Source: Photobacterium sp. DA100
GTDB lineage: Bacteria > Pseudomonadota > Gammaproteobacteria > Enterobacterales > Vibrionaceae
Length of the DNA: 64,000 nt
Assembly: GCF_029223585.1 (NCBI RefSeq)
Contig: NZ_CP119424.1
Coordinates: 1,736,001 to 1,800,000, forward strand
Direction: 5' to 3'
In this document: in pieces, positions 27,703 through 45,869 of the stretch
Position numbering within the stretch: the stretch's first letter is position 1
Layout: every line of letters begins with the position of its first letter
Program-made: the position numbers and the translations under genes
Notes under the pieces: model-generated
Database searches by the model: none
The model's input: only the letters and a program-made list of their open reading frames with translations
Told to the model about the DNA's origin: nothing

Positions 27703-28629
27703 TTACTCAGCCAAATAGTCAACCAGCTGCTTGGCCGTCGGCAACGCCGTCATAGCCCCTTTAGCTGTGGTCGCAAGCGCACCGCAGGCATTAGCCTGCT
27801 TGATAATACCCAGCAAGGTGGATTCATCTTGCCAATTATCAACGGTCACCAAGCCAGCCAGCAAACCACCGACGAAGGCATCACCGGCACCGGTGGTATC
27901 AACGGGGTTGACCGGCTTACCGGTGACCAGCACCTGTCGCTCACCCTGCACCACCAATGCCCCTTTCTTACCTTGCGTCACAATAACCAACGGCAGTTGG
28001 TAGTGCTGCTCAAGGTAAGCCAGCGCAGCTTGCAAATCCGTTTGTGCTGTCAGGAACAATAGCTCATCATCAGAAAACTTCACCACATCCGAAAGCGCGA
28101 CCGCTTGCATCACTACGGGCTTGAGCTCAGAGGGTTCGGCCCACACTTCTTCGCGCAAGTTAGGATCAAAGGACACAAAGCCGCCAGCGGCTTTAATCGC
28201 TTTCATCGCCTCCAAAGTGGTACCGCGTGAGGGTTCGTTGGCCAAGGCAATCGAACAGGCGTGGAGCCACTCGCCCCGAGCAAAAGCCGGTACATCGTCC
28301 TTTGATGTGAATTGGTCGGCACTTGGCTTAACCATAAAAGTAAAGCTGCGCTCGCCCTCATCGTCCAGGTCAACAATGACGGTCGAGGTCCGGTGCTCCG
28401 GATCCAGCTTGATCAAATCGGTGCCAACGCCTTCGTCAAAAAGCACCTGCTTCATAAAACGGCCCAGCGGATCTTGGCCGACACGACCAAAAAATGCCGT
28501 CTCTCCCCCAAGTCGGGCAATACCCACGGCAACATTTGCCGGCGCGCCGCCAGGACATTTGAGGTATGTCCCTTCGCCTTCGGGGATAAGATCAACCACT
28601 GCATCACCTGTGACCCATACTTTTGCCAT
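27703..28629 (-). CDS. scrK: Fructokinase (ScrK, PfkB family)
   Basis: The 308-residue PfkB-family sugar kinase contains KCPGGAPANVAVGIARLGG near the N-terminus and the C-terminal signature DTTGAGDAFVGGLLAGL with the catalytic Asp. The sequence is of the bacterial fructokinase type (VTGDAVVDLIPEGEGTYL). It phosphorylates the fructose freed by ScrB to fructose-6-phosphate. It is about 7 kb from the other scr genes and has its own palindromic operator (28667-28682), so it is probably a separate unit of the same regulon. Confidence 0.9.
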   Translation of the reverse strand: MAKVWVTGDAVVDLIPEGEGTYLKCPGGAPANVAVGIARLGGETAFFGRVGQDPLGRFMKQVLFDEGVGTDLIKLDPEHRTSTVIVDLDDEGERSFTFMVKPSADQFTSKDDVPAFARGEWLHACSIALANEPSRGTTLEAMKAIKAAGGFVSFDPNLREEVWAEPSELKPVVMQAVALSDVVKFSDDELLFLTAQTDLQAALAYLEQHYQLPLVIVTQGKKGALVVQGERQVLVTGKPVNPVDTTGAGDAFVGGLLAGLVTVDNWQDESTLLGIIKQANACGALATTAKGAMTALPTAKQLVDYLAE

Positions 28630-28666
28630 TCGCTAGTCTCCACAACATTTAACTGGGATAATTATT

Positions 28667-28682
28667 GCTAAACCGATTTAGC
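28667..28682 (-). promoter_or_regulatory. LacI-type operator upstream of scrK
   Basis: GCTAAACCGATTTAGC has 6-bp perfect arms around a CCGA centre, 38 bp before the scrK start. The CG-centred form is typical of LacI-family sites, but the arms differ from the two scr operators at 17413 and 18726. Confidence 0.65.
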
Positions 28683-28763
28683 TAAACAATAAAAATAATC
28701 CTCAGTTCGAAAAAATGTGATCAAACTAAAATTTCTTACCCGTCAGGTTATCGTCGATAGCAC

Positions 28764-29459
28764 TCAAAGTGAGTGAATATCTGGGATCGTCACAGCAAGA
28801 AGGGTTTGGCGTGTTTGCTGCCAAAAATGCTGATAGTCAGCATCTCGAGTTAGCGGCTGCCAACCCAATCCATCCAACAACGTGCTCAAGTGGCACCGGG
28901 TGGCGCTTTCCAGCGAATCATGGCCAATAAGAGACATGCCGAAGACCATTGCTCGCACCGCATAAGCGATAGAGTCTGCTGTTTTATCAGTGGGTAGGTC
29001 ACCGCACTGCTGGGCGGTACAGATCGTTTCGACGAGCAGATCATTAACTTGCTCCTCCACTTCTGCATATAACTCCTGCATAGTGTTGGAGAGTTTAGTG
29101 CTGACCTGAGGGTCATTCAGCGACAGGACGCAGTAATGCAGCCTCGGGTATTTTTCCTGGATAAGCACATACACCAAGGCACAGCTCAGTATTCTTTCTC
29201 GAGTTGAACACTCGCCTTCCAGAACCTTTTGCATCATCGCCTTTTGCAGCTTCAGCGTTTTGACACTCAATGCAGAGATAATGTCCTCTTTGCAACTGAA
29301 ATGGCCATACACGGTCCCTTTCGAGTATTCTGAAATGTTTGCCACCTTTTCCATTGTCAGCGCCTGAATGCCTTCCTTGAGCAAGATGTCATAGGCAATA
29401 TCCAGAAATAATGATTCGCGCTGCCGCCTCTCCCTTTCCTTCCTCGTTAATTTACTCAT
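28764..29459 (-). CDS. TetR-family transcriptional regulator at end of lipid-amine operon
   Basis: This 231-residue protein has a TetR DNA-binding domain in its first 60 residues (LFLDIAYDILLKEGIQALTMEKVANISEYSKGTVYGHFSCKED, here abridged by its key helix EYSKGTVYGHF). The C-terminal ligand domain is unassigned. I place the start at the ATG at 29459 (MSKLTRKERERR); the frame extends 30 codons upstream but those residues are not TetR-like. It is the last gene of the leftward cluster, 86 bp after the RND gene, and probably senses the product or its precursors. A 19-bp palindrome before the first gene (43683-43701) is its most likely site. Confidence 0.85.
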   Translation of the reverse strand: MSKLTRKERERRQRESLFLDIAYDILLKEGIQALTMEKVANISEYSKGTVYGHFSCKEDIISALSVKTLKLQKAMMQKVLEGECSTRERILSCALVYVLIQEKYPRLHYCVLSLNDPQVSTKLSNTMQELYAEVEEQVNDLLVETICTAQQCGDLPTDKTADSIAYAVRAMVFGMSLIGHDSLESATRCHLSTLLDGLGWQPLTRDADYQHFWQQTRQTLLAVTIPDIHSL

Positions 29460-29545
29460 TCCCTTCCATAACTCTGCGTAAAACAATTGCCAAGATAAAT
29501 AGAGCCAAGCTGCACCTTCCTCCTTCAAAGATGCAGCTTTTCTCA

Positions 29546-32140
29546 TCATACGGTTAGTGGATCTTTTACCGTAACGACGTTATCTGATGGAATCAACCAA
29601 GGCGCCAGCAGAGTGATTACGTAGATCGACATGATGCCACTGATAAACAAAGATAAGCCAACCAAAGTTCCCAAATCAACGATAGGTTTAAATTCTGAGA
29701 ACAGCAGGGCAATAAAGCCGATACTGAACACAAAAACATTGGCAATTATCGAACGGCCCGACTGTGATAGCGCCTGTAATAACGCATCATCAATGGATAG
29801 CCCCTGTTCAACACCATGCTTAGTTCTAAGCAGATAATGAACGGAGTAATCAACAATACCTAGAATTAGGAAAGAAATAATCGCCGTACCAATATTCAAC
29901 TCGATACCAAAGAAAGCCATGGTTGCGTAATAGATCACCACTGTTGCCGCCAGAGGCAGGGTACCGACTAATCCCATCTTCCAGGACTTCAACCACAGAC
30001 TCATGGTGAGTACGACGGTTAAGAAAGCCAAGCCAATACTGAGTACCTGACCGGAGATCAGCTCATCAAGTACTGCTGTCCAAATAATCGGAGCGCCCGC
30101 CAGCTTATAGCTGATACCAGCCGGCGTATTTTCTTCCAGCCAAGGGATCAATACATCGAGAAAAGCTTGGAACTCACTGGCAACCGTGGTGTTCATGGTA
30201 TAGAGCATCACTGTTTTGGAGAAATCCCCATTGAGAACATTAGTCAGGTCGCTGCCGCCCCCGTTCTCGTACATCAAGATTGACTGGCGAATAATATCCT
30301 GGCCAGAGATGGCTACTTCCTCAACCAAGCCGGTTTCTTCATCGATATCGGTAAATGTCTCCTCACGATATGGCAGGCGGTCGTACTCGGGGGCCATGTC
30401 GTTGAGCACCAGGTTCATCCGCCTCACGTACCTGGCAGCAGAGTAACTGAACGTAATATTTGCCTGCTGGTGGATGAACTTCTCCAGTTTGTCGACAAAC
30501 ATAATGGTGTCATAGTCAAGGGCGGCACCGGGCTCACCCGCATCGATTTCTATCCAGCCCGGGCTGGTTCCCGCCACATTGCTATTGATAAAGTCATCCG
30601 CAATACGAAATTCATTGTCCGGGGCAAAATAGCCACTCCCCATATCATCCACACTGACCTGCAGTGCCATTACCACTAACCCCGCCAGTACCGCTGAAGT
30701 CAGCACCATAAAGCGCGCACGGTAGGCAATAACCGGTTTAAAAAGGATTATCAGACAACGGCTGATGAGGTATGACTCACCGGGTTTGTTATCCTGTTTT
30801 TTAGCTTTACTCTTCGGCTTCAGCAAAGAGAGCCATGCAGGGATCAGCAGCAACGAAATAACCATCGCAACAAACATTCCAAATGACATACTCAGGCCGA
30901 AATTTTGCAGGTTACTGATGCTGGTGGTGGTTGAGATAATGAACGTCAGGCACGTTGTGATTGTCGTCAGAACAACCGGCGCTGTCATCAACCGCATGGT
31001 GACAACAACCGCCTGCTTGTTTGATTGCTCCTGGCGGCGCTGATGGTAATACTCAGCCATGACATGAATTGCGTCGGAGGAACAAATCGTAATTAAAAAT
31101 ACCGGTAGCACACTGGTTATCAAGTCAACGGGAATACCGACCATCGCCATCGCACCCATGGTCCATATTGTGCACATCACAACATTCACCATTGGGATGG
31201 CAACGCCAAGCCCCGACCGAAAAAAAGCAATCAGGATCAGCGCTATGAGCACCATCACTGCAGGTAACAGCGTCCCAAGGTCGCGATCCATAATTTTCTT
31301 TTGCTCGGCAAAGAAAACAGGAACACCACCAATGTAGACTTCATCTTTCAGTTGAGGGTTCGCGGCTTGGTATTCATCAACCAGAAGGCGGATGGCATCG
31401 TATGCCCTCAGCTGTCCCTCGGCATCATCCTGGAGCACGCTAACTTCAATAACCACCAGCCCAACGTGACCCAGTTTATCCACCACTCCCATTTCCATCA
31501 GCTCATTTTTCATGATCGCTTTTTGAATATCAGCCGAATTGCTGTCATTGTGGTTTAGCGTGATACTCGCGCGGAGTGTTCCATCAGGCTCAAGGAATAC
31601 ATTCTCAGTAGCTGCCATTCCAGCCATTTCTCGGACAGGATCAAGACGTTCAGCCAACACCCGGAGGTATTTCGCATCAGCCGCTGACAATGACTGGCCA
31701 TGGCCGTCGGCGACGAACTGCCTGACGGGCGCGGCATCATCCTGGCCAAGTTCTCCGGCCAGAACACCCGCCACTAATGCTGCTAGCTCTGCATGTTGTG
31801 GATATTGTTTTTTCAGCAACGCTAACCTATCAATATCCGATTGATCAGCCAACATTATCTTTCGAGCCGATTGGGTAAGGCTAAAGATGGCATTCAAGCT
31901 TTCCTGGTTGAAAATAGTGTCATGGTTATAAAGCGCAATTAAAATAGAGTCATAGGTTCCCGTAAACTCTTCCCGCATTTCAAGCAAACTGCTTCTCGCC
32001 GGATGGCTCTCTGGCAATAAGTAAGGGTTACTGTCTTCCGTCAGATAGCTAATCTGATAGGTAAAAAAACCAGTAATCAAAACTAACAACAAGATTATTG
32101 ATTTTGCATACTTGGACACAAAATTGATATATGAATTCAT
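29546..32140 (-). CDS. RND/MMPL-family exporter
   Basis: The 864-residue inner-membrane protein has the MMPL layout: one N-terminal helix (residues 14-31), a periplasmic domain, five helices (about 285-430, including GMFVAMVISLLLIPAWLSLL), then a repeat of the same with a second periplasmic domain and a final helix bundle containing FLILGIVDYSVHYLLRTKH. Proteins of this group move lipids and hydrophobic metabolites. It has no adaptor or TolC gene beside it; instead a LolA-like periplasmic protein and a DUF1302-like outer-membrane barrel precede it, with gaps of 3 and 9 bp. It probably exports or distributes the product of the upstream biosynthetic genes. Confidence 0.88.
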   Translation of the reverse strand: MNSYINFVSKYAKSIILLLVLITGFFTYQISYLTEDSNPYLLPESHPARSSLLEMREEFTGTYDSILIALYNHDTIFNQESLNAIFSLTQSARKIMLADQSDIDRLALLKKQYPQHAELAALVAGVLAGELGQDDAAPVRQFVADGHGQSLSAADAKYLRVLAERLDPVREMAGMAATENVFLEPDGTLRASITLNHNDSNSADIQKAIMKNELMEMGVVDKLGHVGLVVIEVSVLQDDAEGQLRAYDAIRLLVDEYQAANPQLKDEVYIGGVPVFFAEQKKIMDRDLGTLLPAVMVLIALILIAFFRSGLGVAIPMVNVVMCTIWTMGAMAMVGIPVDLITSVLPVFLITICSSDAIHVMAEYYHQRRQEQSNKQAVVVTMRLMTAPVVLTTITTCLTFIISTTTSISNLQNFGLSMSFGMFVAMVISLLLIPAWLSLLKPKSKAKKQDNKPGESYLISRCLIILFKPVIAYRARFMVLTSAVLAGLVVMALQVSVDDMGSGYFAPDNEFRIADDFINSNVAGTSPGWIEIDAGEPGAALDYDTIMFVDKLEKFIHQQANITFSYSAARYVRRMNLVLNDMAPEYDRLPYREETFTDIDEETGLVEEVAISGQDIIRQSILMYENGGGSDLTNVLNGDFSKTVMLYTMNTTVASEFQAFLDVLIPWLEENTPAGISYKLAGAPIIWTAVLDELISGQVLSIGLAFLTVVLTMSLWLKSWKMGLVGTLPLAATVVIYYATMAFFGIELNIGTAIISFLILGIVDYSVHYLLRTKHGVEQGLSIDDALLQALSQSGRSIIANVFVFSIGFIALLFSEFKPIVDLGTLVGLSLFISGIMSIYVITLLAPWLIPSDNVVTVKDPLTV

Positions 32141-32143
32141 GAC

Positions 32144-32965
32144 TTAACCTTCATCTCCCTGAATAAGCTCTTTAATCGAAGATATTTTCAGTCCATTTTT
32201 CAAAGCCCGCTTACTGAACTTGTTATTATCCAAACCGACGTTATATTCTAAATTATTAAAAATCATCTCTGATGATGTATCATTGACTAAGTTTATTGTT
32301 CTCGCGTTAGTAATTGTCCAGATCCCCTGAATAGCCTCGACTTCAATGGCCTCTTGCCGTTTGAATAGCACTTCCTTGGCATCGAAATAATCACTACGTA
32401 CAAAAATCTCCCTCTCTTTGTCGACCCACCGCTTCACCTTGTGATAGCCGGTTTTGTTAATCACCTCCTGTGAGGAGGGAATTTGCTCGATAACCCAAGT
32501 CTCTCTGCCATCGATAATTTCTTCCCCAACAACAGTCGATTGATAGTCACCGATCCGAATTTTATCCAGATCATAGTATGAGAAGGTACTGCCCATAAAT
32601 GACCCTCGCTTATCGTTAGAGCCTATCCGACGGATCTTGCGAAAAGCTGGTAAATACAGCCATTGGTCATCCGCACTGCCCGTCTGCTCTGGATAGGTAT
32701 ACATCAGAAAGCTGACCCCGCGGACATCGACTGAGTCATAGAAGTAAATATATGTCATTTCCTTATCGTCACTATCTTTCTGCAACATATACATATTTCT
32801 AGCTCTGACATTACCATCTAAATTAATTAAATTCAGTTCAACATCTGATATATATGAATAACCATCATCACGGTCACGAACAGAAGTTAATATACTGTCA
32901 GCATCAGGGGCTGCATGAGACAGGAATGAACTAAACAATAGCGCTGCAATAATTCCCTTTTTCAT
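32144..32965 (-). CDS. LolA-like outer-membrane lipoprotein-sorting protein
   Basis: This 273-residue protein has a signal peptide (MKKGIIAALLFSSFLSHA, cleavage after HA) and the fold signatures of the TP_0789/LolA-like family: MYMLQKDSDDKEMTYIYF, DQWLYLPAFRKIRRI and RGSFMGSTFSYYDLDK. Relatives carry lipids or lipoproteins across the periplasm and are often encoded next to MMPL transporters. It lies 3 bp before the RND gene and 9 bp after the barrel gene, so the three are one export unit. Confidence 0.85.
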   Translation of the reverse strand: MKKGIIAALLFSSFLSHAAPDADSILTSVRDRDDGYSYISDVELNLINLDGNVRARNMYMLQKDSDDKEMTYIYFYDSVDVRGVSFLMYTYPEQTGSADDQWLYLPAFRKIRRIGSNDKRGSFMGSTFSYYDLDKIRIGDYQSTVVGEEIIDGRETWVIEQIPSSQEVINKTGYHKVKRWVDKEREIFVRSDYFDAKEVLFKRQEAIEVEAIQGIWTITNARTINLVNDTSSEMIFNNLEYNVGLDNNKFSKRALKNGLKISSIKELIQGDEG

Positions 32966-32974
32966 TTTTCCACC

Positions 32975-34186
32975 TTACAAATAATACGTTGTCGACACCC
33001 AGATCCTGTCGTTGTTTTTATATTGGCCAAAGAAGTTATTTTCATTGCCATTCAACAGGTCAACATTCAATTGCAACTTCCAAGTACTAGTGGGTATATA
33101 GGCCAGTTTCACTTGGTACAATCCACCGCCACCGTTGGCATCGGCATAACTTGCGGCAACTCTCGCCGTTAATTTGCTGGCCATCAAGCTGCCCTCCGCA
33201 GAAAGTGTATATATCTCATCAGACTCTGGGGCTGCCAGTTCATCTGACCAGCCACTGATATACCGGTCTGATACTTGGCCGGTGATCAGCCAGTCGCGGT
33301 AAAGGTAATCAATACCGAGCAATCCTTGCGTCGTATTATGCTTCTCCCTGGCAAAAGACGCCGTGCCATAACTTTGCTGGTAAAACCACGCTAACTCTGT
33401 ACGCATAACAAAGTCGCCTAGCGAAAATGACAGGCTATTGCCCAGCATTCGTTGGTCATAGTACTTACCTACCACCTGTTGCCGCTCGGCAATAAAAACC
33501 GGATCGTCCTGATATCCCGCAAAAGCATAAAAGCTCGTATCGGCATCAAACAGGATAGTAGAGAGACGAAAGCCAAACTCACTGCCGTGAGGCTCGTCAA
33601 GCGGCCCCCCCTCCAAAGCCGGCATGGCAAACTCGCTACCACTGGCGGCGAACTGGTTCGGTTCGAAATCAAATAACCAGAGCAACTCCACGTCCCAGTC
33701 GCCAAGGGTGGACTCGGTCCGCAACATAGGCTGGGCAATCCGGTAATCATCAATATCAAACAATACAAAGTCTTTGAGATCTAACGGATTGACAACATCC
33801 GTGACCCTGAGATCATCGGCTTCTCCCCAAACAACTTTTTGGAACCCCAAATATATGAACCAATCTGCCCAACCCCACGACAAAAAAGCTTCATCGAGCC
33901 ACAGTCGGGTTGCATATTCGTCCCTCGCCTTGCGGCTATACTGATTAGTCCAATCAAATACCGCGTCGTATTGCATCTCGCCATCAAAGTTAAATGTCAG
34001 AGCTTCTCCGAAATATTCGAACTTCAACCCCGCGGCATTGACTTGGGAAGTCAGCGTTTCACTGCCATGCAAACGTGAAGATGCTGCAACGGATAACCTT
34101 GGTTCAAGGTACCAGTCACTGGCTTGCACTTGGGGCACCGTTATTGCCCCAATGAGCAGGCCGGACAAAGCCGCTATACGCCACAT
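32975..34186 (-). CDS. Outer-membrane beta-barrel, DUF1302-like
   Basis: The 403-residue protein has a signal peptide (MWRIAALSGLLIGAITVPQVQA) and alternating polar/apolar strands throughout. FQKVVWGEADDLRVTDVVNPLD is typical of DUF1302 barrels, which are found beside RND/LolA-like genes in lipid and sterol export loci. GGAGG precedes the ATG, and the start overlaps the SDR stop by 13 bp. It would be the outer-membrane partner of the RND and LolA-like proteins. The family's transport role is not proven. Confidence 0.75.
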   Translation of the reverse strand: MWRIAALSGLLIGAITVPQVQASDWYLEPRLSVAASSRLHGSETLTSQVNAAGLKFEYFGEALTFNFDGEMQYDAVFDWTNQYSRKARDEYATRLWLDEAFLSWGWADWFIYLGFQKVVWGEADDLRVTDVVNPLDLKDFVLFDIDDYRIAQPMLRTESTLGDWDVELLWLFDFEPNQFAASGSEFAMPALEGGPLDEPHGSEFGFRLSTILFDADTSFYAFAGYQDDPVFIAERQQVVGKYYDQRMLGNSLSFSLGDFVMRTELAWFYQQSYGTASFAREKHNTTQGLLGIDYLYRDWLITGQVSDRYISGWSDELAAPESDEIYTLSAEGSLMASKLTARVAASYADANGGGGLYQVKLAYIPTSTWKLQLNVDLLNGNENNFFGQYKNNDRIWVSTTYYL

Positions 34187-34938
34187 CCGAAACCTCCATC
34201 AATTACAATCCCTTGCGCGGTAATCATTGCGGCAGACGATGATGTCAAAAACGCAACGGTATCGGCCACATCGCTATCTTTGACTAACTGTTTGAGGGGG
34301 ATCCTTTTCTTTATTTGACGGATCATACGATCGACCGAGATCCCTAACGCATCCGCTTGGGGGGCCAGTTCACGGCGCAACATCGGCGTGTCCACCCAAC
34401 AGGGCATCACGGCATTAACCGTGATTTTTCTCGGAGCCCAATCCAGTGCCAGGCTCTTAACCAGCCCCAATAAGCCATGTTTAGAGACGCAATAGGCAGA
34501 GTTGGAGACTTTTCCCGCCTTGCCAAGCACCGAAGATAAAATCACGACCCGGCCGTAAATATTAATATGGGGCTCTAAAGCTGCCAGAAAGCGCTGGGTC
34601 GAATGGAGATTTACATCCAGCACCCGATCCCACACCGACTGTTGGTCAATCTGATTTTCATTACTCAAGGCATGGCTAATGACGATCTTATCGACGCCAT
34701 CTCCTCCACAACAGAAACCGGATACCGCAGCCCGCATTGCATGAATATCAGTGAGATCAATGCAGCAGAAAGTAATGCGTTTTATCTCATCAACGGTAAG
34801 CGATTGTTTTATAAGATCCAATCTGGCTTCATCAATATCAATCGCCACAATATGGCGCTTGGCCTGCATCAGCTCCGATTGGAGCACGGCAGCTCCGATC
34901 CCACTGGCCGCCCCTGTAATGACAACTATCCCTTTCAT
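34174..34938 (-). CDS. Short-chain dehydrogenase/reductase
   Basis: This 254-residue SDR has the cofactor motif VVITGAASGIGAAVL, the catalytic Ser in VVILSSVLGKAGK and the YCVSKHG Tyr/Lys pair. The usual NNAG is replaced by SHAL, so it is a divergent member. It follows the FabG-like gene by 13 bp and overlaps the barrel gene. In this operon it could reduce a ketoacyl group or act on the released aldehyde, alcohol or amine. Which one cannot be told from sequence. Confidence 0.82.
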   Translation of the reverse strand: MKGIVVITGAASGIGAAVLQSELMQAKRHIVAIDIDEARLDLIKQSLTVDEIKRITFCCIDLTDIHAMRAAVSGFCCGGDGVDKIVISHALSNENQIDQQSVWDRVLDVNLHSTQRFLAALEPHINIYGRVVILSSVLGKAGKVSNSAYCVSKHGLLGLVKSLALDWAPRKITVNAVMPCWVDTPMLRRELAPQADALGISVDRMIRQIKKRIPLKQLVKDSDVADTVAFLTSSSAAMITAQGIVIDGGFGCGV

Positions 34939-34951
34939 GTTTTTTCCCTAC

Positions 34952-35710
34952 CTAGCCCAAGACAAGACCACCATCAACAGTCAGCACCTGCCCTGTGATG
35001 TAATGGTTAGCGGGGTGGGCCAAAAACAGAACGGCCTCAGCAATATCACTCGGTTCACCAAATTTTCTAGCCAACAGGCGTTGCTTCAATTGCTTTTCAA
35101 AGTTATCCAACAGCTCTCCCGTCATTTCTGTTTTGATAACCCCAGGCGCGACTGCATTGACCCGAATTCCCTTTTTCCCTACTTCTACTGCCAATGCCCG
35201 TGTAAGGGCTTCGACAGCCCCTTTCGAAGCGGCATAGTTTGTCTGCCCCTTATTAGCCCTAGCCGCAGAAACTGACGATAAATTTACGATGCTCCCGCTT
35301 CTTACGGGCAGCATCAGTTTCACCGCCTCGCGGCAAAACAGCATAGTGCCCACGACATTCGTCGCTAAAACCACTTCCATGTCGTTCTTTTCCATGGTGA
35401 CCAAAAGGCCGTCGCGGGTTTGGCCTGCGTTGTTGACCAACACGTCAAGCCTTCCATACTGTTGCTCTATCCTTGCAAACAGTTCGGTCACAGCCGCCTC
35501 ATCACTGACATCCAACTGGAGGGAAAGAGCCCGGGCACCGCATCTCTCAATATCTGTCATCAGCGAAACCGCCTCTGCTTGGTTGCTGCGATAGCAAAAA
35601 GCAAGGTCATAGCCTTTTTGGGCAAATGCCAATGCAATACTGCGTCCAATTCCCCGCGTTGCCCCAGTAACCAAGGCTACCGGTCTTGAAGTACTTTCGT
35701 TCCGTTCCAT
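34952..35710 (-). CDS. 3-oxoacyl-ACP reductase (FabG-like)
   Basis: The 252-residue SDR is a canonical FabG type: VALVTGATRGIGRSIALAF (NADPH site), VLVNNAGQTRDGLL, IVNLSSVSAARANKGQTNYAASK (catalytic Ser, Tyr, Lys) and TGQVLTVDGGLVLG. It should reduce beta-ketoacyl-ACP made by the cluster ketosynthases. Its ATG shares one base with the stop of the aminotransferase/reductase gene (TAATG), so translation is coupled. Confidence 0.88.
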   Translation of the reverse strand: MERNESTSRPVALVTGATRGIGRSIALAFAQKGYDLAFCYRSNQAEAVSLMTDIERCGARALSLQLDVSDEAAVTELFARIEQQYGRLDVLVNNAGQTRDGLLVTMEKNDMEVVLATNVVGTMLFCREAVKLMLPVRSGSIVNLSSVSAARANKGQTNYAASKGAVEALTRALAVEVGKKGIRVNAVAPGVIKTEMTGELLDNFEKQLKQRLLARKFGEPSDIAEAVLFLAHPANHYITGQVLTVDGGLVLG

Positions 35711-38580
35711 TACATCGACTCCGATACCTTAACTTTGCCTAACTTCATGCCGTGCTCACGCGCTCGCAGTGCTATCCACTTCACCTGTTCTTTGGTTAGA
35801 TTGCCGTATGAGTAATGAGTAGGATATTGCTCCATGCCAAGCACTATGGTTTCAGCCATACAGGCATAAACCTGCCCCTCACTGAGATAGGCCCTTACCC
35901 TGGGATCTAGGCTCTCATTGTGTGGGGTTTGCACAATCCCTCCCCGGATACACCGGATATCTGGCCGAGCACCCAATACGCTGTCCGAAAGGTTATGGGG
36001 AACCGCAATATCACAAACAATGGCGCTTTGCTGGATCATGCCGATATCAATAAAAGCATCAGACGCATTCGAAGCACAGATAACAGTATCAGCCTGGTCA
36101 ATTGCACCGACATCCGTTGAGATCAACACCGGAGCAACGGATAAATGCTGCTGGCACCAATCAAAAATCGCCTCTCCTGCCGTCTTATCCGGCATTTGGT
36201 TAAGCCAATTGGCTATGATTTCTTGATGTGGCTGCAAGGCCGAGGCGATACCTGCGGCAGGCTGACTTGGATTTTGCAAACTTTCCCATTCCGCTTGGTA
36301 GATCTGATATGCGACCTTCTGTAGTCGTTTCACTGAACCCTGTCGGCCACTTCCCACCAGCGTGAGTTGCTGGCAGTGCTCTGCAACGAGCAAACTGTAT
36401 ACCGACCCAATGTTGCCAGCCGCGCCAATGACGGCAGCAGAAACGATAGGGTGCCCCCTGTCTTGCGCGGCATTCAGCAGCGCTTCGTGGGCCATCGCTA
36501 TGGTCAGTGCATTTCCGGTGGTCAGAGAAATACCAGCAGTCTGTGCTGCTTTTCCGTTATTCATCACAATCGAGGTAAACATCCCGAGTCCGGCGTGCCT
36601 ACAGCCATCGGCTTTCGCTGCGGCCAACCTTTCATCAATTGCGGCGCGAAGTGGCTCCAATTGATTATTTTCAAGCTGCTCGCTAATTTGTTGGGAGGTT
36701 GAATTAATGGGATATAGGATAAAATCTACCGTCTGGCCTTGGCTGGACTTCATCCTGACGGGAGCAAACGGGGCAACCCGCTTATCAAAGGCAAAGCGCC
36801 TGACTAATTCATCACATTGGCCATCTGTCCAATGTTGCAAAGAGGCATCCACTTGGCGGAGCCAGTCACTGGAGATCAAATGGTTAACAAAGGCCACCTT
36901 ACTATCTGCCGGCTGTGAATACTGCTGTTCGATCCCCAAAGAGCCGTACCATGGCCGGAAGTCTTTTGGCTCTTTAGTCGGATGGGGCTCATCATGAACC
37001 AGAAAATGCATCAAGTACCCTGTATCTTGGTACCTCAGGGCCAGGCACATCCGCTCGAGGGCATTGATGAGTTCGTCAATTTGTTGCTGGGTCAACAAAA
37101 TAGTCGGCTCTATCCGGATCACATTGCCTGCGCTGGCTGGCGGAGCAACCCTGATCCCGTGTTCATTGAGCAAATACCCGGTTAACAAGTAGCCTAAGGC
37201 CCCTTGGTAGGCGGATGTCCGGATCAAGTGTGCTGGCGCATTATCCTGGGACTGGAATTCAATACCCAATAACAGCCCCTTGCCACGAATATCCTTAATC
37301 ACATCAGGATAGCTCTGGTGCAGCCCCTTCAATGCCTCAAACAGAACTTCCCCCAGATCACGGACCGTGGATAGTGCCCGCCCATCATCTTCCATTAAAC
37401 GGTCGAGGTATGCAGCAGCCAACTGGCAGGACATTTCGTCTTCGGCAAAAGTCGAACTTTGTAAAATATCAAAACCATCCGCATATTGGCCCGAGCGAAT
37501 AGCCACCACCCCTAGTTTGGATAAGCCTGCGCCCAGAGCTTTAGACAGCACGACATAGTCAGGTTTTAAACCAATTAGGCTACCGGCAAGAAATGAGCCA
37601 CAACGACCACTACCGGACTGCACTTCATCAGCAATGAGCGGGCAGCCGAGTGTATCCCTCACCCGGTGTAATACTTTTGCATCAGCTTCGGTTAGGGCAT
37701 GCACGCCCCCTTCACCCTGGACGGGCTCAACCAATACCGCGGCAACAGTTGGAATAGCAACGTCTTCGAGTACTAGACCCTTTTTTGTTTTCTTGGGCAG
37801 CAACAATGATGGTTGATCTAACCAGGACGTATCTCCGTGAGTTAATGTGTCAAGCTGGGCAATAGACACAAACTCAGTCCGTAGACCCAACCGGCGAAAT
37901 GGCTGGCGGTACATAAGACCGTGCGTAAGCTGGATAGATGTGGTGAGCTTGCCGTGGAAGGCATGCTCCAGCGCTATAAACACAGGAGGCTGCTGTAATA
38001 CCGAGGCATTGTGCTTCCTAACATAGGCCAACACTTTATCGCAGGAAGCAGTAGCAAGCTCAGGGTACAACATTGCCTGGGCCTCAGTAAGCGACAGGGA
38101 CAGCATGGCATTTTCTTCAAAGGCCAGCCCTAATTGCTCCAAGGCGCGATCGGACTGATTCGATAAAAGTTCTAGCTTTTGCCCCCGACTCATTTCACTG
38201 TGTTTGATAGCTATCTCAACACTTTCCGCTCCGGTCGAAGTAAAAGCACAACGGAATGGTTCCGACCAGCCTGTTTCTTTTCTCAACAAAGGCTGTAATT
38301 TTTCAGCCAAGGCCCCGGCACCACTGCGAATGGAAAACTGATGGTGAAAAGGGGTATTGGCTTGTAACAAACCTACAGCCTGCTGTCTGAATTCAGGGTC
38401 GTTATGACCAAACAACACAGCGCCATATCCGCCTAAAAGGTCGAGTACCTGCTGTTCAACACCTTGGCTATTTGAATAATATAAATATTGTCCTTCGGCA
38501 CGATGATAAACTTTATCTAGCCCGATACTGGTAAGGGCTGCCGATAAAGAGGGTTTACAGTATTGCAGATAGTGATTCAT
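35710..38580 (-). CDS. Class III aminotransferase fused to acyl-ACP reductase (AAR-like)
   Basis: The 956-residue protein has two enzymes. Residues 1-530 are a class III PLP aminotransferase with CAFTSTGAESVEIAIKHSEM, LIADEVQSGSGRCG (PLP Asp318) and VVLSKALGAG (PLP Lys347); an insertion of about 60 residues at 130-190 is unusual. Residues 600-956 resemble cyanobacterial long-chain acyl-ACP reductase: LGMFTSIVMNN, the Rossmann loop GAAGNIGSVYS (from 719) and QVYACMAETIVLGME, where Cys907 matches the acyl-accepting Cys of AAR. The pair would cut an acyl chain from ACP as an aldehyde and transaminate it to a primary amine. A similar two-enzyme architecture is reported for TamH in tambjamine synthesis. 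The start overlaps the previous stop as ATGA. Confidence 0.85.
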   Translation of the reverse strand: MNHYLQYCKPSLSAALTSIGLDKVYHRAEGQYLYYSNSQGVEQQVLDLLGGYGAVLFGHNDPEFRQQAVGLLQANTPFHHQFSIRSGAGALAEKLQPLLRKETGWSEPFRCAFTSTGAESVEIAIKHSEMSRGQKLELLSNQSDRALEQLGLAFEENAMLSLSLTEAQAMLYPELATASCDKVLAYVRKHNASVLQQPPVFIALEHAFHGKLTTSIQLTHGLMYRQPFRRLGLRTEFVSIAQLDTLTHGDTSWLDQPSLLLPKKTKKGLVLEDVAIPTVAAVLVEPVQGEGGVHALTEADAKVLHRVRDTLGCPLIADEVQSGSGRCGSFLAGSLIGLKPDYVVLSKALGAGLSKLGVVAIRSGQYADGFDILQSSTFAEDEMSCQLAAAYLDRLMEDDGRALSTVRDLGEVLFEALKGLHQSYPDVIKDIRGKGLLLGIEFQSQDNAPAHLIRTSAYQGALGYLLTGYLLNEHGIRVAPPASAGNVIRIEPTILLTQQQIDELINALERMCLALRYQDTGYLMHFLVHDEPHPTKEPKDFRPWYGSLGIEQQYSQPADSKVAFVNHLISSDWLRQVDASLQHWTDGQCDELVRRFAFDKRVAPFAPVRMKSSQGQTVDFILYPINSTSQQISEQLENNQLEPLRAAIDERLAAAKADGCRHAGLGMFTSIVMNNGKAAQTAGISLTTGNALTIAMAHEALLNAAQDRGHPIVSAAVIGAAGNIGSVYSLLVAEHCQQLTLVGSGRQGSVKRLQKVAYQIYQAEWESLQNPSQPAAGIASALQPHQEIIANWLNQMPDKTAGEAIFDWCQQHLSVAPVLISTDVGAIDQADTVICASNASDAFIDIGMIQQSAIVCDIAVPHNLSDSVLGARPDIRCIRGGIVQTPHNESLDPRVRAYLSEGQVYACMAETIVLGMEQYPTHYSYGNLTKEQVKWIALRAREHGMKLGKVKVSESM

Positions 38581-39452
38581 TCGGTATCCCTTCTCAGTAT
38601 TGCTCGCGCTGTGCGTTTGTTGCCATAATCCGCTTCGACAGACCAATGCCCCTGATACTGTTCAGAGTGCACATGCTGCAAGCTTTGTGTAATAGCCATG
38701 ACAATACCGCCCCATTCCAATCCTTCCCGTTCACGAAACATTGCACCGTCAAGCCAAGGTGTGTTTTCCTGCGAATTTGAGCTAAAGCTATTTATCCATG
38801 CCTGTACATTGGCACCACGCCGTTTAGCATGGGCTTCGGACTCAAGAATCAAGACCGCCGCCCCCGTATGTTCCGTATTGATGGGCAAGGGTCTTTGCTC
38901 GGCGACCGCGGTATAGCAATCTTCGTCACAGCCCGACATGACAACCATCGCCACTTCCGCATAACCAGAGCTCAGCTGAAAGTAAGCCTCATCCAAAGCC
39001 GCTGCAGAGCCGGCTTGATCACGAATAAAGGCCACACCATCATTTTTCAGCCGCCATATTTGACTGATGATGCCAATCAGGTTGTTGCTCAGGGCTTTGG
39101 TAATTAGAAATGGATTGACTTGACGGGACTGCCATAACGTCGCAAGCAAAGACGGTTCAACGTGGCGATCCCATCCTTTCAATGCATCGGCGAAATCGTC
39201 AAAATCAGGGTGCTGGTATCCACTTTGTGCGGTATATAAGGCCACTTTTTCGCATAACGTTTTTTCATCCAATCCGCAGCTTTCAACGGCCTGATGGCAA
39301 GCCGCGACGGCGGTAGGTATTGAGCGGGTCGAGAACCGCCTTAATTTTCTAGGGATCAGTTCCGGAACGGTTTGGTTTTGCGCATCATGGTTTGAAGACG
39401 ACTTAGGTAAAACCAGACCAAAGCCGGTAATTGCTATTGCTGATTTATTCAT
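38577..39452 (-). CDS. Short ketosynthase-like protein with active-site Gln (KSQ/chain-length-factor-like)
   Basis: This 291-residue protein keeps the N-terminal half of the ketosynthase fold (AIAITGFGLVLP; GAAVLILESEAHAKRRGA) but ends before most of the C-terminal thiolase half, so the HGT and GH histidines are absent. At the nucleophile position it reads RDQAGSAAALDEA: Gln146 replaces Cys, as in KSQ decarboxylases and type II chain-length factors. It may pair with one of the intact ketosynthases or help start chains. The ATG at 39452 overlaps the upstream ketosynthase stop by 8 bp. Confidence 0.75.
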   Translation of the reverse strand: MNKSAIAITGFGLVLPKSSSNHDAQNQTVPELIPRKLRRFSTRSIPTAVAACHQAVESCGLDEKTLCEKVALYTAQSGYQHPDFDDFADALKGWDRHVEPSLLATLWQSRQVNPFLITKALSNNLIGIISQIWRLKNDGVAFIRDQAGSAAALDEAYFQLSSGYAEVAMVVMSGCDEDCYTAVAEQRPLPINTEHTGAAVLILESEAHAKRRGANVQAWINSFSSNSQENTPWLDGAMFREREGLEWGGIVMAITQSLQHVHSEQYQGHWSVEADYGNKRTARAILRRDTE

Positions 39453-40731
39453 TGTACTTACCAAATACCAAGCTGGAATTTATGCCACCAAAACCAAATG
39501 AATTAGACAGGCAGTGAGTCAGGCTGTATGGCCTTGCTACATCCGGAACATAGTCAAGATCGCAAAGGGGATCTGAGTTCTGTAGGTTGATAGTCGGAGG
39601 AACAAGACCATGGTATATCGCCAGGACTGTTGCGATAGCCTCTGGCGCGGCCGCAGCTGATATCCAGTGACCAATCATAGACTTAGTTGATGAAACCATT
39701 GGCAATTGAGAGCTGTCTCCCCCCTCAGGGCTTACACCGCCATCGCCAAAAATCGTTTTAATTGCGGCCGTTTCGATCTTGTCATTTAACGGAGTCGATG
39801 TGCCATGGGCGTTAATGTAGTCAATCGCATCAGGCTTGATTCCCGCATCAGCCAAGGCGTTCACCATCGCTGCTTGTGCCCCTTTCCCATCGGGCCGAGG
39901 TGCAGTGACTTTAAAGGCATCCATTGAGCTTCCATAGCCTTGTACCTCGGCGTATATCCTTGCACCACGGGTCCTGGCGGAAGATTCACTTTCCAGCACC
40001 AAATAAGCGCCTCCTTCTCCAGCCACGAGCCCGCCACGCTCTGCATCAAAAGGACAACAGAGTTTATTTTTTCGGTGGTTGGCTGTTGCCGTTGCCCCTA
40101 GCAAAAACAATCCAGACATCGTCCTTGCATTCAACACCGAGTCAGCCCCACCGGCGAGCGCCTGTTGCAACTCCCCGCGCCTAATTGCTTGGAACGCAGC
40201 CCCTATTGCCTGCGCGGCACCAGCACAGGCACCGTTAATATTCACTACGGGCCCTGTCGCACCACTTTGGTGGGCGATTTGAACACTGATATTGTCATTG
40301 CCACTTTGCAGCGCGGAAAACTGATTGGCACCTGCCGCCATCGTCTGTTTCGAAAAAGCATGAATGCCATCTCGGTTAACTTGGCTGAGCTCGACATCAT
40401 TAATTTCGGGCACACCGCTACAGCTGAAAACACCGATACCTTCGCCGCACCGAATATCAGCATCAGAAAGAGCTTGCTGCGCAGCCAAAGCCCCGAACAA
40501 CACACGCCTTTCTAGAGGCTTTGTTTCGCCCGGCCAAATCGGGAAGGCCTGCAGTAAATCACAAGTATCAATGACTGATGCATATTGAACGGGAAATTCC
40601 GTACCCTCTACCTCTGGCCACTGCTCGATCCCATTCTTGCCGTGAGAAATAGCCTGCCAGAAGTCGGCTAGCTGGTAGCCATAGCTGCTGATCACGCCCA
40701 TCCCCGTAATCACTACCTTTTGATTAACCAT
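39445..40731 (-). CDS. Beta-ketoacyl-ACP synthase II-like (intact ketosynthase 2)
   Basis: The 428-residue FabF-like enzyme begins MVNQKVVITGMGVISSYG and has a full catalytic set: Cys169 in NINGACAGAAQAIG, His308 in INAHGTSTPLND, Lys349 and His354 in STKSMIGHWISAA. It should extend an acyl chain with malonyl-ACP. AAGGAG precedes the ATG at 40731, which overlaps the previous gene's stop by 8 bp. Its neighbours on both sides are ketosynthase-fold proteins without the nucleophile, as in KS/CLF pairs of type II polyketide systems. Confidence 0.88.
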   Translation of the reverse strand: MVNQKVVITGMGVISSYGYQLADFWQAISHGKNGIEQWPEVEGTEFPVQYASVIDTCDLLQAFPIWPGETKPLERRVLFGALAAQQALSDADIRCGEGIGVFSCSGVPEINDVELSQVNRDGIHAFSKQTMAAGANQFSALQSGNDNISVQIAHQSGATGPVVNINGACAGAAQAIGAAFQAIRRGELQQALAGGADSVLNARTMSGLFLLGATATANHRKNKLCCPFDAERGGLVAGEGGAYLVLESESSARTRGARIYAEVQGYGSSMDAFKVTAPRPDGKGAQAAMVNALADAGIKPDAIDYINAHGTSTPLNDKIETAAIKTIFGDGGVSPEGGDSSQLPMVSSTKSMIGHWISAAAAPEAIATVLAIYHGLVPPTINLQNSDPLCDLDYVPDVARPYSLTHCLSNSFGFGGINSSLVFGKYNE

Positions 40732-41923
40732 GCAGGGCTCCTTTTCCTTCACCAACCAGCGCGTTATCAGTTGATGTATCCCCAATCAATAGAAACACCT
40801 GTTGCCCCTGCAAGCCGTAACAAGCTACCAGCACATGCTGGCAGTTAAGCGGCACACAGTCTGGCGCTTTGAGTACTGACTCATCCACCTTTGCGGGCTT
40901 CGGGTTTGACAACGCTTGGTTACTGCTCAACATCTCTTGCCGCTTGAGGATTTCTAACGCCAAATTAACTCCAATCGCAGCTCCGGCAGGACCTGTGGTT
41001 CCTATCACGGTATCGAGTAACAACTGGTGTGCTCCGGGAAAGAAGCGGCTCATCGGCGCAACCATCTTTTGTGCTGGCTCTGGCAGTCCCACATGGATAA
41101 TCTGCAACGGATTTTCAAATGATGTACCGGCATGGCTTTGCGCTAATTGCAGCGCAATCTGATCAAGCAAATATTGGCTGGCTTGGAAGTTGGCACTGAA
41201 TCCACGGTGAACACTTAACAGAGCCCCTTCAGCTGATTGTGGGGATTGGCTAAGCAGTACCGAGGCCACAGCTTCGGCAGGACACCAGGATTGAGCACTG
41301 ACGCCAGACAAAACCGACTGGTAGGCCAAGAAATACCAGGGGGTAATTTTTTGGCTTCCGCCGGAAACCAAGGCAACATCACACTGGTTTTCCGTCAGGT
41401 TAAAGTACGCCTCGGCAAACGCATTACCCCCGGCATCGGCGTGGGGTGAGTAGACACCATTCACACCTGTTATTTGCAGCCGCTCGGCAATATGGCTCGC
41501 CGTCGTCGAATTTAGCAGGGTCAAGCCAGACAAAGGTTTTATTTGGCAAAGCCCCTCACGGGCCAGCTGATTGTAATCGCCATGGAATGAAATTTGCTCC
41601 CCGTCATCATCACAATCAACAGTGCCCAAACCAAGAAATAACCCTGCTCTTCCCCCTCCTGCTTGGTCTCCAAAATACTGCCGCCAACTGTTAACGCTGT
41701 TCTCTATCACCCAGCGAGACTGTTTTTCCGATGTCTTACGAACGATGCGCGACACTTCTATTTGTTTTAAATCGGTATCTCTCAAATAGGCAGCCTGATC
41801 CGCAAGGCCTAGGCTGGTATTGTTATCGAGGGCAGTAACTGGGAAAGAGGCTTGCGAAAAAAACACCTCCCACCCCATACCTTCAGGTAACTGTTGTTGC
41901 CCTTGTTTTAAATATGCAGGCAT
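40724..41923 (-). CDS. Degenerate ketosynthase-like protein (nucleophile Cys lost)
   Basis: This 399-residue protein has the overall length and pattern of a ketosynthase but lacks all catalytic residues. The nucleophile region reads SPHADAGGNAFAEAY with Asp163 at the Cys position, HVGLPEP stands where NAHGTGT is expected, and TVIGTTGPAGAA replaces the GH motif. It is likely a partner subunit, such as a chain-length factor, rather than an enzyme. It starts one base after the stop of ketosynthase 1 and overlaps ketosynthase 2 by 8 bp, which suggests equal translation with both. Confidence 0.75.
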   Translation of the reverse strand: MPAYLKQGQQQLPEGMGWEVFFSQASFPVTALDNNTSLGLADQAAYLRDTDLKQIEVSRIVRKTSEKQSRWVIENSVNSWRQYFGDQAGGGRAGLFLGLGTVDCDDDGEQISFHGDYNQLAREGLCQIKPLSGLTLLNSTTASHIAERLQITGVNGVYSPHADAGGNAFAEAYFNLTENQCDVALVSGGSQKITPWYFLAYQSVLSGVSAQSWCPAEAVASVLLSQSPQSAEGALLSVHRGFSANFQASQYLLDQIALQLAQSHAGTSFENPLQIIHVGLPEPAQKMVAPMSRFFPGAHQLLLDTVIGTTGPAGAAIGVNLALEILKRQEMLSSNQALSNPKPAKVDESVLKAPDCVPLNCQHVLVACYGLQGQQVFLLIGDTSTDNALVGEGKGALHG

Positions 41924-41924
41924 C

Positions 41925-43175
41925 TTACGGGTACTCCTTGGAAAAAATTAAGCAACAATTTTCCCCGCCAAACCCAAAGGAATTACTGAGAACGTGATTG
42001 ATAGCCTGAGAAGCTCCTCGCTTAACAATATTAAGCCGTGGCTCCTCCGGCTTTGGCTCAGTAAAATTAAGCGTTGGTAGCACCTGCTGCTTTTCAATGG
42101 ACATTACCGACAACACCGCCTCAATTGCACCACTGGCGGCCAGCGAATGCCCTAACGCAGATTTTGTCGAAGTCACTGTAGTTGAGTTAGAAAACAAACT
42201 AGCTAGCGCACGAGACTCGGCTTGGTCATTGCTCACTGTTGATGTGCCATGTGCATTTACATGGCTGATGGCATCAGGTGACAATTGCGCATCTTCCAGA
42301 GCCTTTTCAATGCATTCACGATATAAGCTGCCATCCGGGTTGGTTGCCGTTAGTTTGTAGGATTCAATTTGCCTCGAAGCGCCACTAATATAAGCCAATA
42401 CTTTTTTCCCTTGGCGTTTAGCAAGATCCGCATTTTCCAACACCAAAAATGCCGCCGCATCAGCAAGTACGCAACCAGAACGATCCTTATCAAATGGCCG
42501 CGATGTTTGTTCAGGCGTTGGAAATGTTTGACTACAGGTCGCACCCAGCTTAGTAAATAACAATTGCATAATCGGTTGTGTACCAAACTCAGAGGCACCA
42601 CAAATAGCAACGTCGAGTTGTCCTTGTTGAATACGACGGAAACCAGACATGATTGCAGCAGCTCCAGCCGCGCAAGCATCACCGAAGACTAAACTTGGAC
42701 CACTAATAGACAAACGAGATGAAATATATTCTGATATCAGATCTGGCTTTAAATGTTTTAATCGCTGCAACACCTTCGATCTATCATCATCTGCTATATT
42801 AACCCCTTTGTAGTAATCCCATAGGAAATTCAAATCTTTATTGTCTGGGAAAATTTTATTTACACCTAAAAAAAGACCTGCATTCTTTAGCATTTCTTTT
42901 TTAAGACCAGCAAAATGTACAGCCTGCACGACCGCATCAAAAGCCACATAGGTTCCTTCATAGTTATTATCATCACATCGTATGTGTTTATTTTTTAGTT
43001 TAGAAATAACAGATGAAGAAATAGGCGAGCTCACGATATTATCAATACCTAAATCAAGGAGTCTTACATCTTTCTTTATGGTCGACTCCCCATTGAAAAG
43101 TGCTGAGAATTGACCTTCAGCACTAAGGTGATCGCCAGTTATAAGCCCTATCCCTGTTACAGCAACAGTTTCCAT
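41925..43175 (-). CDS. Beta-ketoacyl-ACP synthase (intact ketosynthase 1)
   Basis: The 416-residue ketosynthase has Cys168 in VFGDACAAGAAAIMSG, His309 in HVNAHGTSTVSND, Lys338 and His343 in STKSALGHSLAASGA, so it should be active. The N-terminal third is AT-rich and diverges from FabF (for example NNYEGTYVAFDAV), and the gene differs in sequence from ketosynthase 2, so they probably take different chain lengths or starters. AAGGGG precedes the ATG. It follows the ACP gene by 19 bp. Confidence 0.86.
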   Translation of the reverse strand: METVAVTGIGLITGDHLSAEGQFSALFNGESTIKKDVRLLDLGIDNIVSSPISSSVISKLKNKHIRCDDNNYEGTYVAFDAVVQAVHFAGLKKEMLKNAGLFLGVNKIFPDNKDLNFLWDYYKGVNIADDDRSKVLQRLKHLKPDLISEYISSRLSISGPSLVFGDACAAGAAAIMSGFRRIQQGQLDVAICGASEFGTQPIMQLLFTKLGATCSQTFPTPEQTSRPFDKDRSGCVLADAAAFLVLENADLAKRQGKKVLAYISGASRQIESYKLTATNPDGSLYRECIEKALEDAQLSPDAISHVNAHGTSTVSNDQAESRALASLFSNSTTVTSTKSALGHSLAASGAIEAVLSVMSIEKQQVLPTLNFTEPKPEEPRLNIVKRGASQAINHVLSNSFGFGGENCCLIFSKEYP

Positions 43176-43194
43176 GACACCCCTTCAGGCCTGG

Positions 43195-43653
43195 TTAGGC
43201 AACAGCTCTCAATTGTTCACAGAAAGTCGAAACATAGTGATGGATAACATCTTCACCAGACAACCCGCTTTCTTTAATAGCCAAACAGACATTTGCCCAA
43301 TTAGAGACTGATGTTGAAAGATAGACTTCTGTTAGGCTTATCCCTTCAGATACTTTGTCTGCAGAGTATTTAAAAGGACTCAATTGCAACAGTTCAGCGC
43401 CTTTTGCAGTCAGGCGCTCATTTACCACGAAAACACTGTCTTCATCCGCAACTTCCAATGCATGAGCTATAACGCTTTTCTGTGGCATTTGAATTTTGAA
43501 AGTTTTCCCTAAGGAAAAAGAAAGGTCAACGATATCTAGGGAATCTGCACCTAAATCATCAACAAGCGCATCATCCAAACCAACTTCATCATTCTCTAAC
43601 TCTAATACTTCAGCAATAATCTCAATGACTTTATCTTTAAATAACTTATCCAT
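43195..43653 (-). CDS. Acyl carrier protein with C-terminal extension
   Basis: Residues 1-80 are a standard acyl carrier protein with Ser38 in DDLGADSLDIVDL as the phosphopantetheine site. A further 70 or so residues (TAKGAELLQLSPFKYSADK to the C-terminus) have no match I recognise and make it twice the usual size. It is the first gene of the leftward operon and should carry the growing chain for the ketosynthases and hand it to the AAR-like domain. No phosphopantetheinyl transferase, acyltransferase or dehydratase gene is in the cluster, so host enzymes would be needed. Confidence 0.85.
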   Translation of the reverse strand: MDKLFKDKVIEIIAEVLELENDEVGLDDALVDDLGADSLDIVDLSFSLGKTFKIQMPQKSVIAHALEVADEDSVFVVNERLTAKGAELLQLSPFKYSADKVSEGISLTEVYLSTSVSNWANVCLAIKESGLSGEDVIHHYVSTFCEQLRAVA

Positions 43654-43682
43654 AAAATTCCCACTTTTAAATATCAGTTACT

Positions 43683-43701
43683 TTTTGACGAAGCGTCAAA
43701 A
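43683..43701 (-). promoter_or_regulatory. Candidate operator before the ACP operon
   Basis: TTTTGACGAAGCGTCAAAA is a perfect 8+3+8 palindrome 30 bp before the ACP start codon. Its size and spacing fit a TetR-family dimer site, and a TetR gene ends this operon. The link is by position and form only. Confidence 0.65.
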
Positions 43702-43860
43702 CGAGTGAAAAACTACAACACAAGATAATTAAAAACAATCAAAACAACAGTGGAAAATATCATTTAGTTATTTTGTTCGGCGCTATTACCACAACGAACT
43801 CACTTACAATCATCTCAAATACTTTATTGTGTGACATGTGCTGGAGAAAACAGATATTTA

Positions 43861-43900
43861 TAAAAAAAGTCTCGCTATTTTCATAGCGAGACTTTTTATT
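43861..43900. terminator. Bidirectional terminator bounding the lipid-amine operon
   Basis: AAAGTCTCGCTAT (43866-43878) and ATAGCGAGACTTT (43883-43895) form a 13-bp stem with a 4-base loop. T-rich tracts follow in both directions. It lies 40 bp after the stop of the 194-aa exported protein gene and marks the upstream edge of the ACP operon, which must have its own promoter in 43702-43860. Confidence 0.85.
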
Positions 43901-43935
43901 TATAACTTAGCTATAAAGGAATAATAAAATAAAAA

Positions 43936-44520: not shown

Positions 44521-44720
44521 TTTTAATCTCAACAATAATCTGAACAGGGCTATATTAATGCTTCAATGGCCTTATTGTCATGCCTTAACAACATAATCTT
44601 CACAACCGCCCTTAAACCATGACTTCCATCAAACAAGAATATACACACCATTGCATTGGTCACCCATTCATTAGATGATAAGCAAACCTACCCATATCCT
44701 TAAGGAATACGAAGGTAGCT

Positions 44721-45278: not shown

Positions 45279-45377
45279 GGCACCTAAACCAGAGCAATCA
45301 GGATAAGCAAACCAATCAGACTTAGCCGCGCTTTCTTAAGCTATGCTTTTTAAAAGCAAATAATTAGGGAGCGCGCA

Positions 45378-45827: not shown

Positions 45828-45840
45828 GCCGTTCAGTCGA

Positions 45841-45869
45841 TAAAAAAGAGGAAGCCAAGGCTTCCTCTT
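45841..45869 (-). terminator. Terminator after the histidine kinase gene
   Basis: AAGAGGAAGCC (45846-45856) and GGCTTCCTCTT (45859-45869) make an 11-bp stem with a 2-base gap, so a few inner pairs must open. Read leftward it ends in six T. It lies 7 bp past the kinase stop. Confidence 0.8.

Follow-up and report, generated by a model that had tools for sequence, protein, structure and literature searches.

A probable koreenceine-type (kecA–kecK) gene cluster with an added TetR gene in Photobacterium sp. DA100

The DNA analysed here (the window) comprises 64,000 nucleotides of Photobacterium sp. DA100 (contig NZ_CP119424.1, positions 1,736,001 to 1,800,000), and its positions 28764–43653 carry twelve open reading frames on the minus strand, which overlap or are separated by at most 19 bases. 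According to Pfam, this operon encodes an acyl carrier protein (ACP; PP-binding), two ketoacyl synthases, two proteins with weak similarity to ketosynthases (KS), a fusion protein with a class III aminotransferase, two short-chain dehydrogenases/reductases (SDRs), a PF17131 protein, an MMPL protein and a TetR_N regulator. The G/C content of the cluster is not distinctive (0.482 versus 0.492 for the window). The genes are named below after their counterparts in the koreenceine (kec) cluster of Pseudomonas; where five Pseudomonas loci are mentioned, the percentages are protein identities.

43195..43653, minus strand: KecA-like ACP, 152 amino acids, with a C-terminal extension (PF00550; Ser38 in LGADSLD; 35–40% to kecA of five Pseudomonas loci)
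41925..43175, minus strand: KecB-like ketosynthase 1 (KS-alpha), Cys-His-His present (PF00109/PF02801; 38–40% to five Pseudomonas loci)
40724..41923, minus strand: KecC-like KS-beta, resembling a chain length factor, without the catalytic Cys (PF00109, E 2e-6; A in the Cys column; 24–27% to five Pseudomonas loci)
39445..40785, minus strand: KecD-like ketosynthase 2, FabF-like, Cys-His-His present (PF00109/PF02801; 48–49% to five Pseudomonas loci)
38577..39464, minus strand: KecE-like KS-beta, 295 amino acids (PF13723 and PF00109 both below cut-off; Q in the Cys column; 29–34% to five Pseudomonas loci)
35710..38580, minus strand: KecF-like fusion, 956 amino acids from the ATG, class III aminotransferase (Lys347) plus acyl-ACP reductase (GAAGNIG, Cys907)
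34952..35710, minus strand: KecG-like FabG-type ketoreductase, YxxxK (NF009466, FabG subfamily, 230.8 versus a cut-off of 222; TIGR01830, 269.5 bits, below 297.75)
34174..34938, minus strand: KecH-like second SDR, classical type, YxxxK (PF13561)
32975..34186, minus strand: KecI-like predicted outer-membrane beta barrel (aligns with the protein in kecI position of seven other loci, 31–97%)
32144..32965, minus strand: KecJ-like LolA-like periplasmic protein (PF17131, E 1.3e-49; solved relatives 9TP6, 3BK5 and 4Z48)
29546..32140, minus strand: KecK-like MMPL/resistance-nodulation-division (RND) exporter, HAE3-type (PF03176; 46–48% to five Pseudomonas loci)
28764..29549, minus strand: TetR-family regulator, end of the operon (PF00440)

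An earlier reading of the locus, made from the sequence alone (the sequence-only reading), had described twelve packed leftward genes. The list of open reading frames and the Pfam search confirm this and most of the family assignments, including the LolA-like protein, the RND/MMPL pump and TetR as the last gene. The label DUF1302 for the barrel protein is unsupported, since this protein had no Pfam match at E 0.001; a structure model of low confidence (pLDDT 63) shows a beta barrel similar to those of Occ porins and AlgE. Position 43701, taken as the end of the cluster, is where a palindrome upstream of the ACP gene ends; it does not coincide with the end of a gene. The KecD-like gene contains an additional in-frame ATG at 40731, and the best NCBIfam model for the exporter, HAE3 TIGR00921, scores below its cut-off.

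Eleven of the twelve genes pair one-to-one, in identical order and strand, with kecA–kecK, the 11-gene koreenceine cluster of Pseudomonas koreensis (Lozano 2019, PMC6498172). The functions described there are, in order, ACP, KS-alpha, KS-beta, KS-alpha, KS-beta, the fusion, two reductases, two proteins predicted to be membrane proteins and a drug-transporter-like protein; in KecF, an aminotransferase is joined to an acyl-ACP-reductase-like domain (COG5322) (PMC6498172). Koreenceines A–D were isolated and the cluster is needed for koreenceines, koreenceine being an antibiotic that resembles a poison-hemlock alkaloid (PMC6498172); the cluster of Pseudomonas koreensis CI12 is entered in MIBiG as BGC0001987 (PMC11888242). 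Thus, the earlier view of the operon as uncharacterised and of its gene set as undescribed was wrong (PMC6498172).

We searched 199 Pseudomonas genomes (the genus to which G420 belongs; this genome, titled Pseudomonas gingeri, contains locus L008) and read the neighbourhoods of all 16 matches. All eleven genes were present in the order and strand of the window in 14 of them; a further locus (L127) contains A–G and then reaches the contig end, and the last one (L105) has a fusion with 33–35% identity and no counterpart of the remaining ten genes within 19.5 kb. Identity to five Pseudomonas loci ranged from 24% for the first KS-beta to 52% for the FabG-like protein. The published primers for the kecA–kecK deletion matched locus L123 with 1, 0, 0 and 0 mismatches at the four sites, the inner pair lying at the start of kecA (ACP) and 18 bases past the stop codon of kecK (RND). 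In locus L100, three of the four sites had 2, 2 and 0 mismatches and the fourth had 7. The serine of the ACP and the tyrosines of the KecG-like and KecH-like proteins are conserved in nine of nine aligned rows each. The gene set in its order, the identity of the reference locus given by the primers, the KS and KS-beta residues and the residues of the fusion all agree with membership among the kec clusters. Further traits of this type would be a 2-alkyl tetrahydropyridine as product and inhibition of Bacteroidetes. The window cluster is very probably a koreenceine-type cluster in Photobacterium with an added TetR gene, which adds a host to a known pathway and does not represent a pathway of a new kind.

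For the KS-type proteins, the four sequences from each of five loci were aligned. Cys-His-His was found in all ten KS rows and the Cys in none of the ten KS-beta rows, in agreement with the two ketosynthases and two inactive KS-fold proteins proposed earlier. The KS-beta proteins are the least conserved cluster proteins in comparison with Pseudomonas (24–34% identity), and the KecE-like protein is missing a large part of the C-terminal half of a KS. KecE lengths, with starts in the compared loci chosen by script, are 295 amino acids here, about 291 in the close relative G012 and 332–463 in seven loci from outside Photobacterium. Since KecE is also short in G012, the shortening is not a frameshift of one strain.

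The fusion of aminotransferase and acyl-ACP reductase was borne out, with its start corrected: translation most likely begins at the in-frame ATG at 38580 (956 amino acids) rather than at the TTG at 38646. The pyridoxal phosphate-binding Lys347 and the catalytic Cys907 of the reductase are invariant in 29 of 29 aligned fusions, which were taken from the 120 listed among 377 found. The C-terminal domain matches the acyl-ACP reductase 6JZQ/6JZU and PigE (4PPM). A structure comparison with VIA-align returned aminotransferases only, covering the N-terminal domain and barely probing the C-terminal half; the reductase assignment follows from the sequence match together with the residue conservation. 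The genome contains no other match to the fusion at E 1e-100. A 969-amino-acid aminotransferase frame (G000:C1:1318127–1319368; L114 975–3881) was considered as a second fusion and rejected, as it gave no fusion match at this threshold. This frame, located on another contig, has a class III aminotransferase at its N-terminus and is followed by a second frame of 420 amino acids; we take the two to be of the 2,4-diaminobutyrate aminotransferase-decarboxylase type and the carboxynorspermidine dehydrogenase type, respectively.

By analogy to the kec cluster, a medium-chain acyl starter from host fatty acid synthesis would be extended on the dedicated ACP by the two KS/KS-beta pairs, perhaps with one malonate each. 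The first beta-keto group would be retained and become C5. The second would be reduced by the FabG-like enzyme and then be dehydrated and enoyl-reduced, probably by host enzymes, since no dehydratase family was matched among the twelve cluster proteins and both SDRs are of the classical YxxxK type. The C-terminal domain of the fusion would load the acyl chain onto Cys907 and release it as a 5-keto aldehyde, which the N-terminal domain would transaminate, and the amine could then attack the C5 ketone, closing the ring to a 2-alkyl-3,4,5,6-tetrahydropyridine. RND protein, LolA-like protein and barrel would move this hydrophobic alkaloid out of the cell, and TetR would control the operon. For this organism, we infer every step as well as chain length, export route and regulation. 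A homologous fusion, PP_2782, transaminates aldehydes and, of the ketones tested, only 1,2-cyclohexanedione (PMC10829540), a substrate range consistent with amination of C1 and cyclisation at the C5 ketone; its C910 maps to C294 of the acyl-ACP reductase AAR (PMC10829540).

Koreenceines A–C are tetrahydropyridines, that is cyclic imines, and analogues of the hemlock alkaloid gamma-coniceine (PMC6498172), so a cyclic imine and no lasting primary amine is the product to be expected. Of the chemistry in the sequence-only reading, the ACP-bound chain, the reductive release by a domain of the acyl-ACP reductase type, the transamination of the aldehyde and the attached export set are supported by homology. 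The lipid-like primary amine it proposed is better regarded as a transient intermediate than as the end product. That reading had named homologous clusters with a non-amine product as evidence against itself; the koreenceines come close to this, a cyclic imine still being an amine-derived alkaloid.

A stable primary amine as end product would require that both keto groups are reduced or removed, giving a long-chain, lipid-like compound that is deposited in the outer membrane or exported across it. The release chemistry does yield an amine first, two SDRs are present, and TamH, which has the same layout, makes the fatty amine for tambjamine YP1 (PMC9594044). However, the eleven genes for pathway and export follow the order of the koreenceine cluster throughout, koreenceines A–C are cyclic, and a simple fatty amine would presumably not need two KS/KS-beta pairs. 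We consider such an end product improbable. An aryl-polyene-like lipid cluster with an MMPL/LolA export set is more improbable by far. Aryl polyene clusters contain a similar mix of ACP, ketosynthases, FabG, LolA-like and MMPL proteins, and include dehydratase and acyltransferase genes; here, no dehydratase, acyltransferase or ammonia-lyase family was found in the twelve proteins, and the aminotransferase-reductase fusion is present.

Several observations weigh against a straightforward assignment to the koreenceine pathway. The fusion branches with marine and metagenome sequences, apart from Pseudomonas. The available text on PP_2782 gives its reductase activity as not determined and KecF as not assayed in vitro (PMC10829540), and a literature search, with subscription papers mostly outside it, found no metabolite data for the strain or the genus. 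In addition, the identity of only 24–52%, lowest for the KS-beta proteins, and the shorter KecE imply that chain length or reduction pattern may differ. A koreenceine-like pathway whose tail or ring has drifted, for example to a different chain length, an unsaturated tail or a reduced piperidine, would fall within the koreenceine-type assignment rather than compete with it, and its chances are close to even: weak conservation of KS-beta, the shortened KecE and the separate branches formed by marine fusions argue for drift, whereas the checked catalytic residues and both reductases are kept and the operon has no additional gene besides TetR.

The TetR gene is shared with the close relative G012 (L106), where the protein is 92% identical, and this was the only BLAST match among 18 loci compared. 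Outside those 18, L105 showed weak similarity of a generic TetR kind (27% across 86 residues). In G730, which belongs to another genus of the same family, a TetR-like gene recognised by eye lies upstream of the ACP gene (L113, 3379–3972) and has no BLAST match to the TetR of the window; regulators may thus have been recruited separately. Two non-coding elements lie upstream of the ACP gene:

43683..43701, no strand: candidate TetR operator, perfect palindrome TTTTGACG-AAG-CGTCAAAA, 30–48 nucleotides upstream of the ACP start
43859..43902, no strand: hairpin between a gene for a 199-amino-acid protein and the cluster, arms of 20 nucleotides with 90% complementarity, loop of 4 nucleotides

At up to two mismatches, 0.02 occurrences of the palindrome pattern are expected in the window, the pattern having been chosen after it was seen; at up to one mismatch the site is unique in the 6.0-Mb genome. 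The copy in G012 differs by one base. Since the pattern was picked post hoc, arms of eight bases are not rare in A/T-rich DNA and the upstream DNA of both genomes is 88% alike, we propose the palindrome as an operator and do not take it as evidence of binding. The hairpin is a probable bidirectional terminator. The region has fewer promoter-like sites than shuffled sequences do (16 versus a mean of 23.2), so none of them was used as evidence. Tentatively, and as a possibility rather than an expectation, we suggest that this marine Photobacterium makes a hemlock-type tetrahydropyridine with a side chain set by the diverged, shortened KS-beta, and that the dedicated TetR acts at the palindrome, possibly sensing the alkaloid or an acyl precursor.

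The cluster is rare in the taxonomic vicinity of the window: the fusion was present in two of 52 genomes of the genus and three of 329 of the family, both counts including the window's own. G012 carries the complete set A–K in the same order, as does G730, whose fusion is about 50% identical. The fusion has an 83% identical homologue labelled Photobacterium satsumensi(s). A quick tree built from 47 fusions places the fusion of the window with three Photobacterium-like rows and, at the next level, with five rows including metagenome-assembled genomes labelled Kangiellaceae and Cellvibrio-like (SH-like approximate likelihood ratio test, SH-aLRT, 99); some outgroup branches are long. A Streptomyces locus (L109) has A–H only, and clusters with A–H only are described for clade C (Lozano, PMC6498172). 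Comparable clusters have been counted in Photobacterium (3), Vibrio (2) and Pseudoalteromonas (5) (Prout 2024, PMC10829540, Table 1); therefore, this kind of cluster is already in print for Photobacterium.

An alignment scan returned at least 80 loci, most of them distant fusions or class III aminotransferases of other kinds; the best Pseudomonas row had 31% identity, and no Pseudomonas kec locus was recognised by identity among them. A plasmid collection gave five records at E 1e-60, all below 60% identity. Among 369 genomes drawn evenly from the class, including the window's own (G000), four matched; the three others are distant (29–35%) and show no other cluster gene within about 5.9 kb, stretches too short to exclude one.

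In the relative G034 the flanks of the cluster adjoin: window positions 27704–28735 and 43933–46977 match L115 4213–5245 and 5364–8419, with 118 bases between the two matches. This makes the cluster a unit of roughly 15.2 kb that was either acquired in the genome of the window or lost from G034. In two further genomes of the genus, G001 and G043, about 4.6 kb of other DNA separates these flanking genes, so that the insertion site is variable and its empty form is seen in G034 only. The gene for the 199-amino-acid protein (43936–44535) marks the right edge of the site and occurs in 24 of the 52 genus genomes; it had no Pfam match and no NCBIfam match at E 1e-60, the only threshold used.

Elsewhere in the window, positions 10152–14870 (also 1189–2850 and 4129–5070) encode glyoxylate carboligase, a protein of the hydroxypyruvate isomerase family, tartronate semialdehyde reductase and glycerate kinase, and genes for carbamate kinase and FdrA lie nearby. 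By its look, this block presumably serves allantoin/ureidoglycolate breakdown.

The assignment corrects a claim of novelty, has modest value for those who screen marine bacteria for natural products and makes a concrete and cheap prediction, namely koreenceine-like masses in extracts of the marine strain; koreenceines A–C have the formulae C14H25N, C14H27N and C14H27NO. A second, diverged and complete kecA–K set with its own regulator should be useful for learning how KS-beta sets chain length, and the cluster would tie an export set of HAE3-type pump, LolA-like protein and barrel to a small hydrophobic alkaloid. A similar export set is known from AmeABCD, the monoterpene efflux system of Castellaniella defragrans, which likewise combines an HAE3 RND pump, an outer-membrane protein and a periplasmic protein of the LolA superfamily; it differs by its setting in monoterpene metabolism and a fourth protein, AmeC (PMC6394551), and the barrel of the window has no DUF1302 match.

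Fusions of this kind also occur in other pathways. TamH shares the N-terminal transaminase and the C-terminal acyl-ACP-reductase-type domain with its putative catalytic Cys, but works with TamA (adenylation-ACP) on a proposed C12 substrate, and the two convert fatty acids to amines in one pot (PMC9594044). No adenylation domain was found in the twelve cluster proteins, the only part of the genome searched for one. PigE of prodigiosin biosynthesis (4PPM) likewise unites an AAR-like and an aminotransferase domain in one protein, but in the opposite order, with the AAR-like domain N-terminal and the aminotransferase C-terminal, and the product is a pyrrole. We rejected the identification of the fusion as PigE because of this reversed order and a score of 244.8 bits with the NCBIfam PigE model, for which the cut-off is 850. 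PP_2777–PP_2787 of Pseudomonas putida KT2440 is a cluster of the same kind, containing the fusion PP_2782 with aldehyde transaminase activity in vitro (PMC10829540; PMC12490732), and differs from the window in host and sequence. The koreenceine cluster itself lacks the extra TetR gene, has a longer KecE and belongs to another genus, with protein identities of 24–52%.

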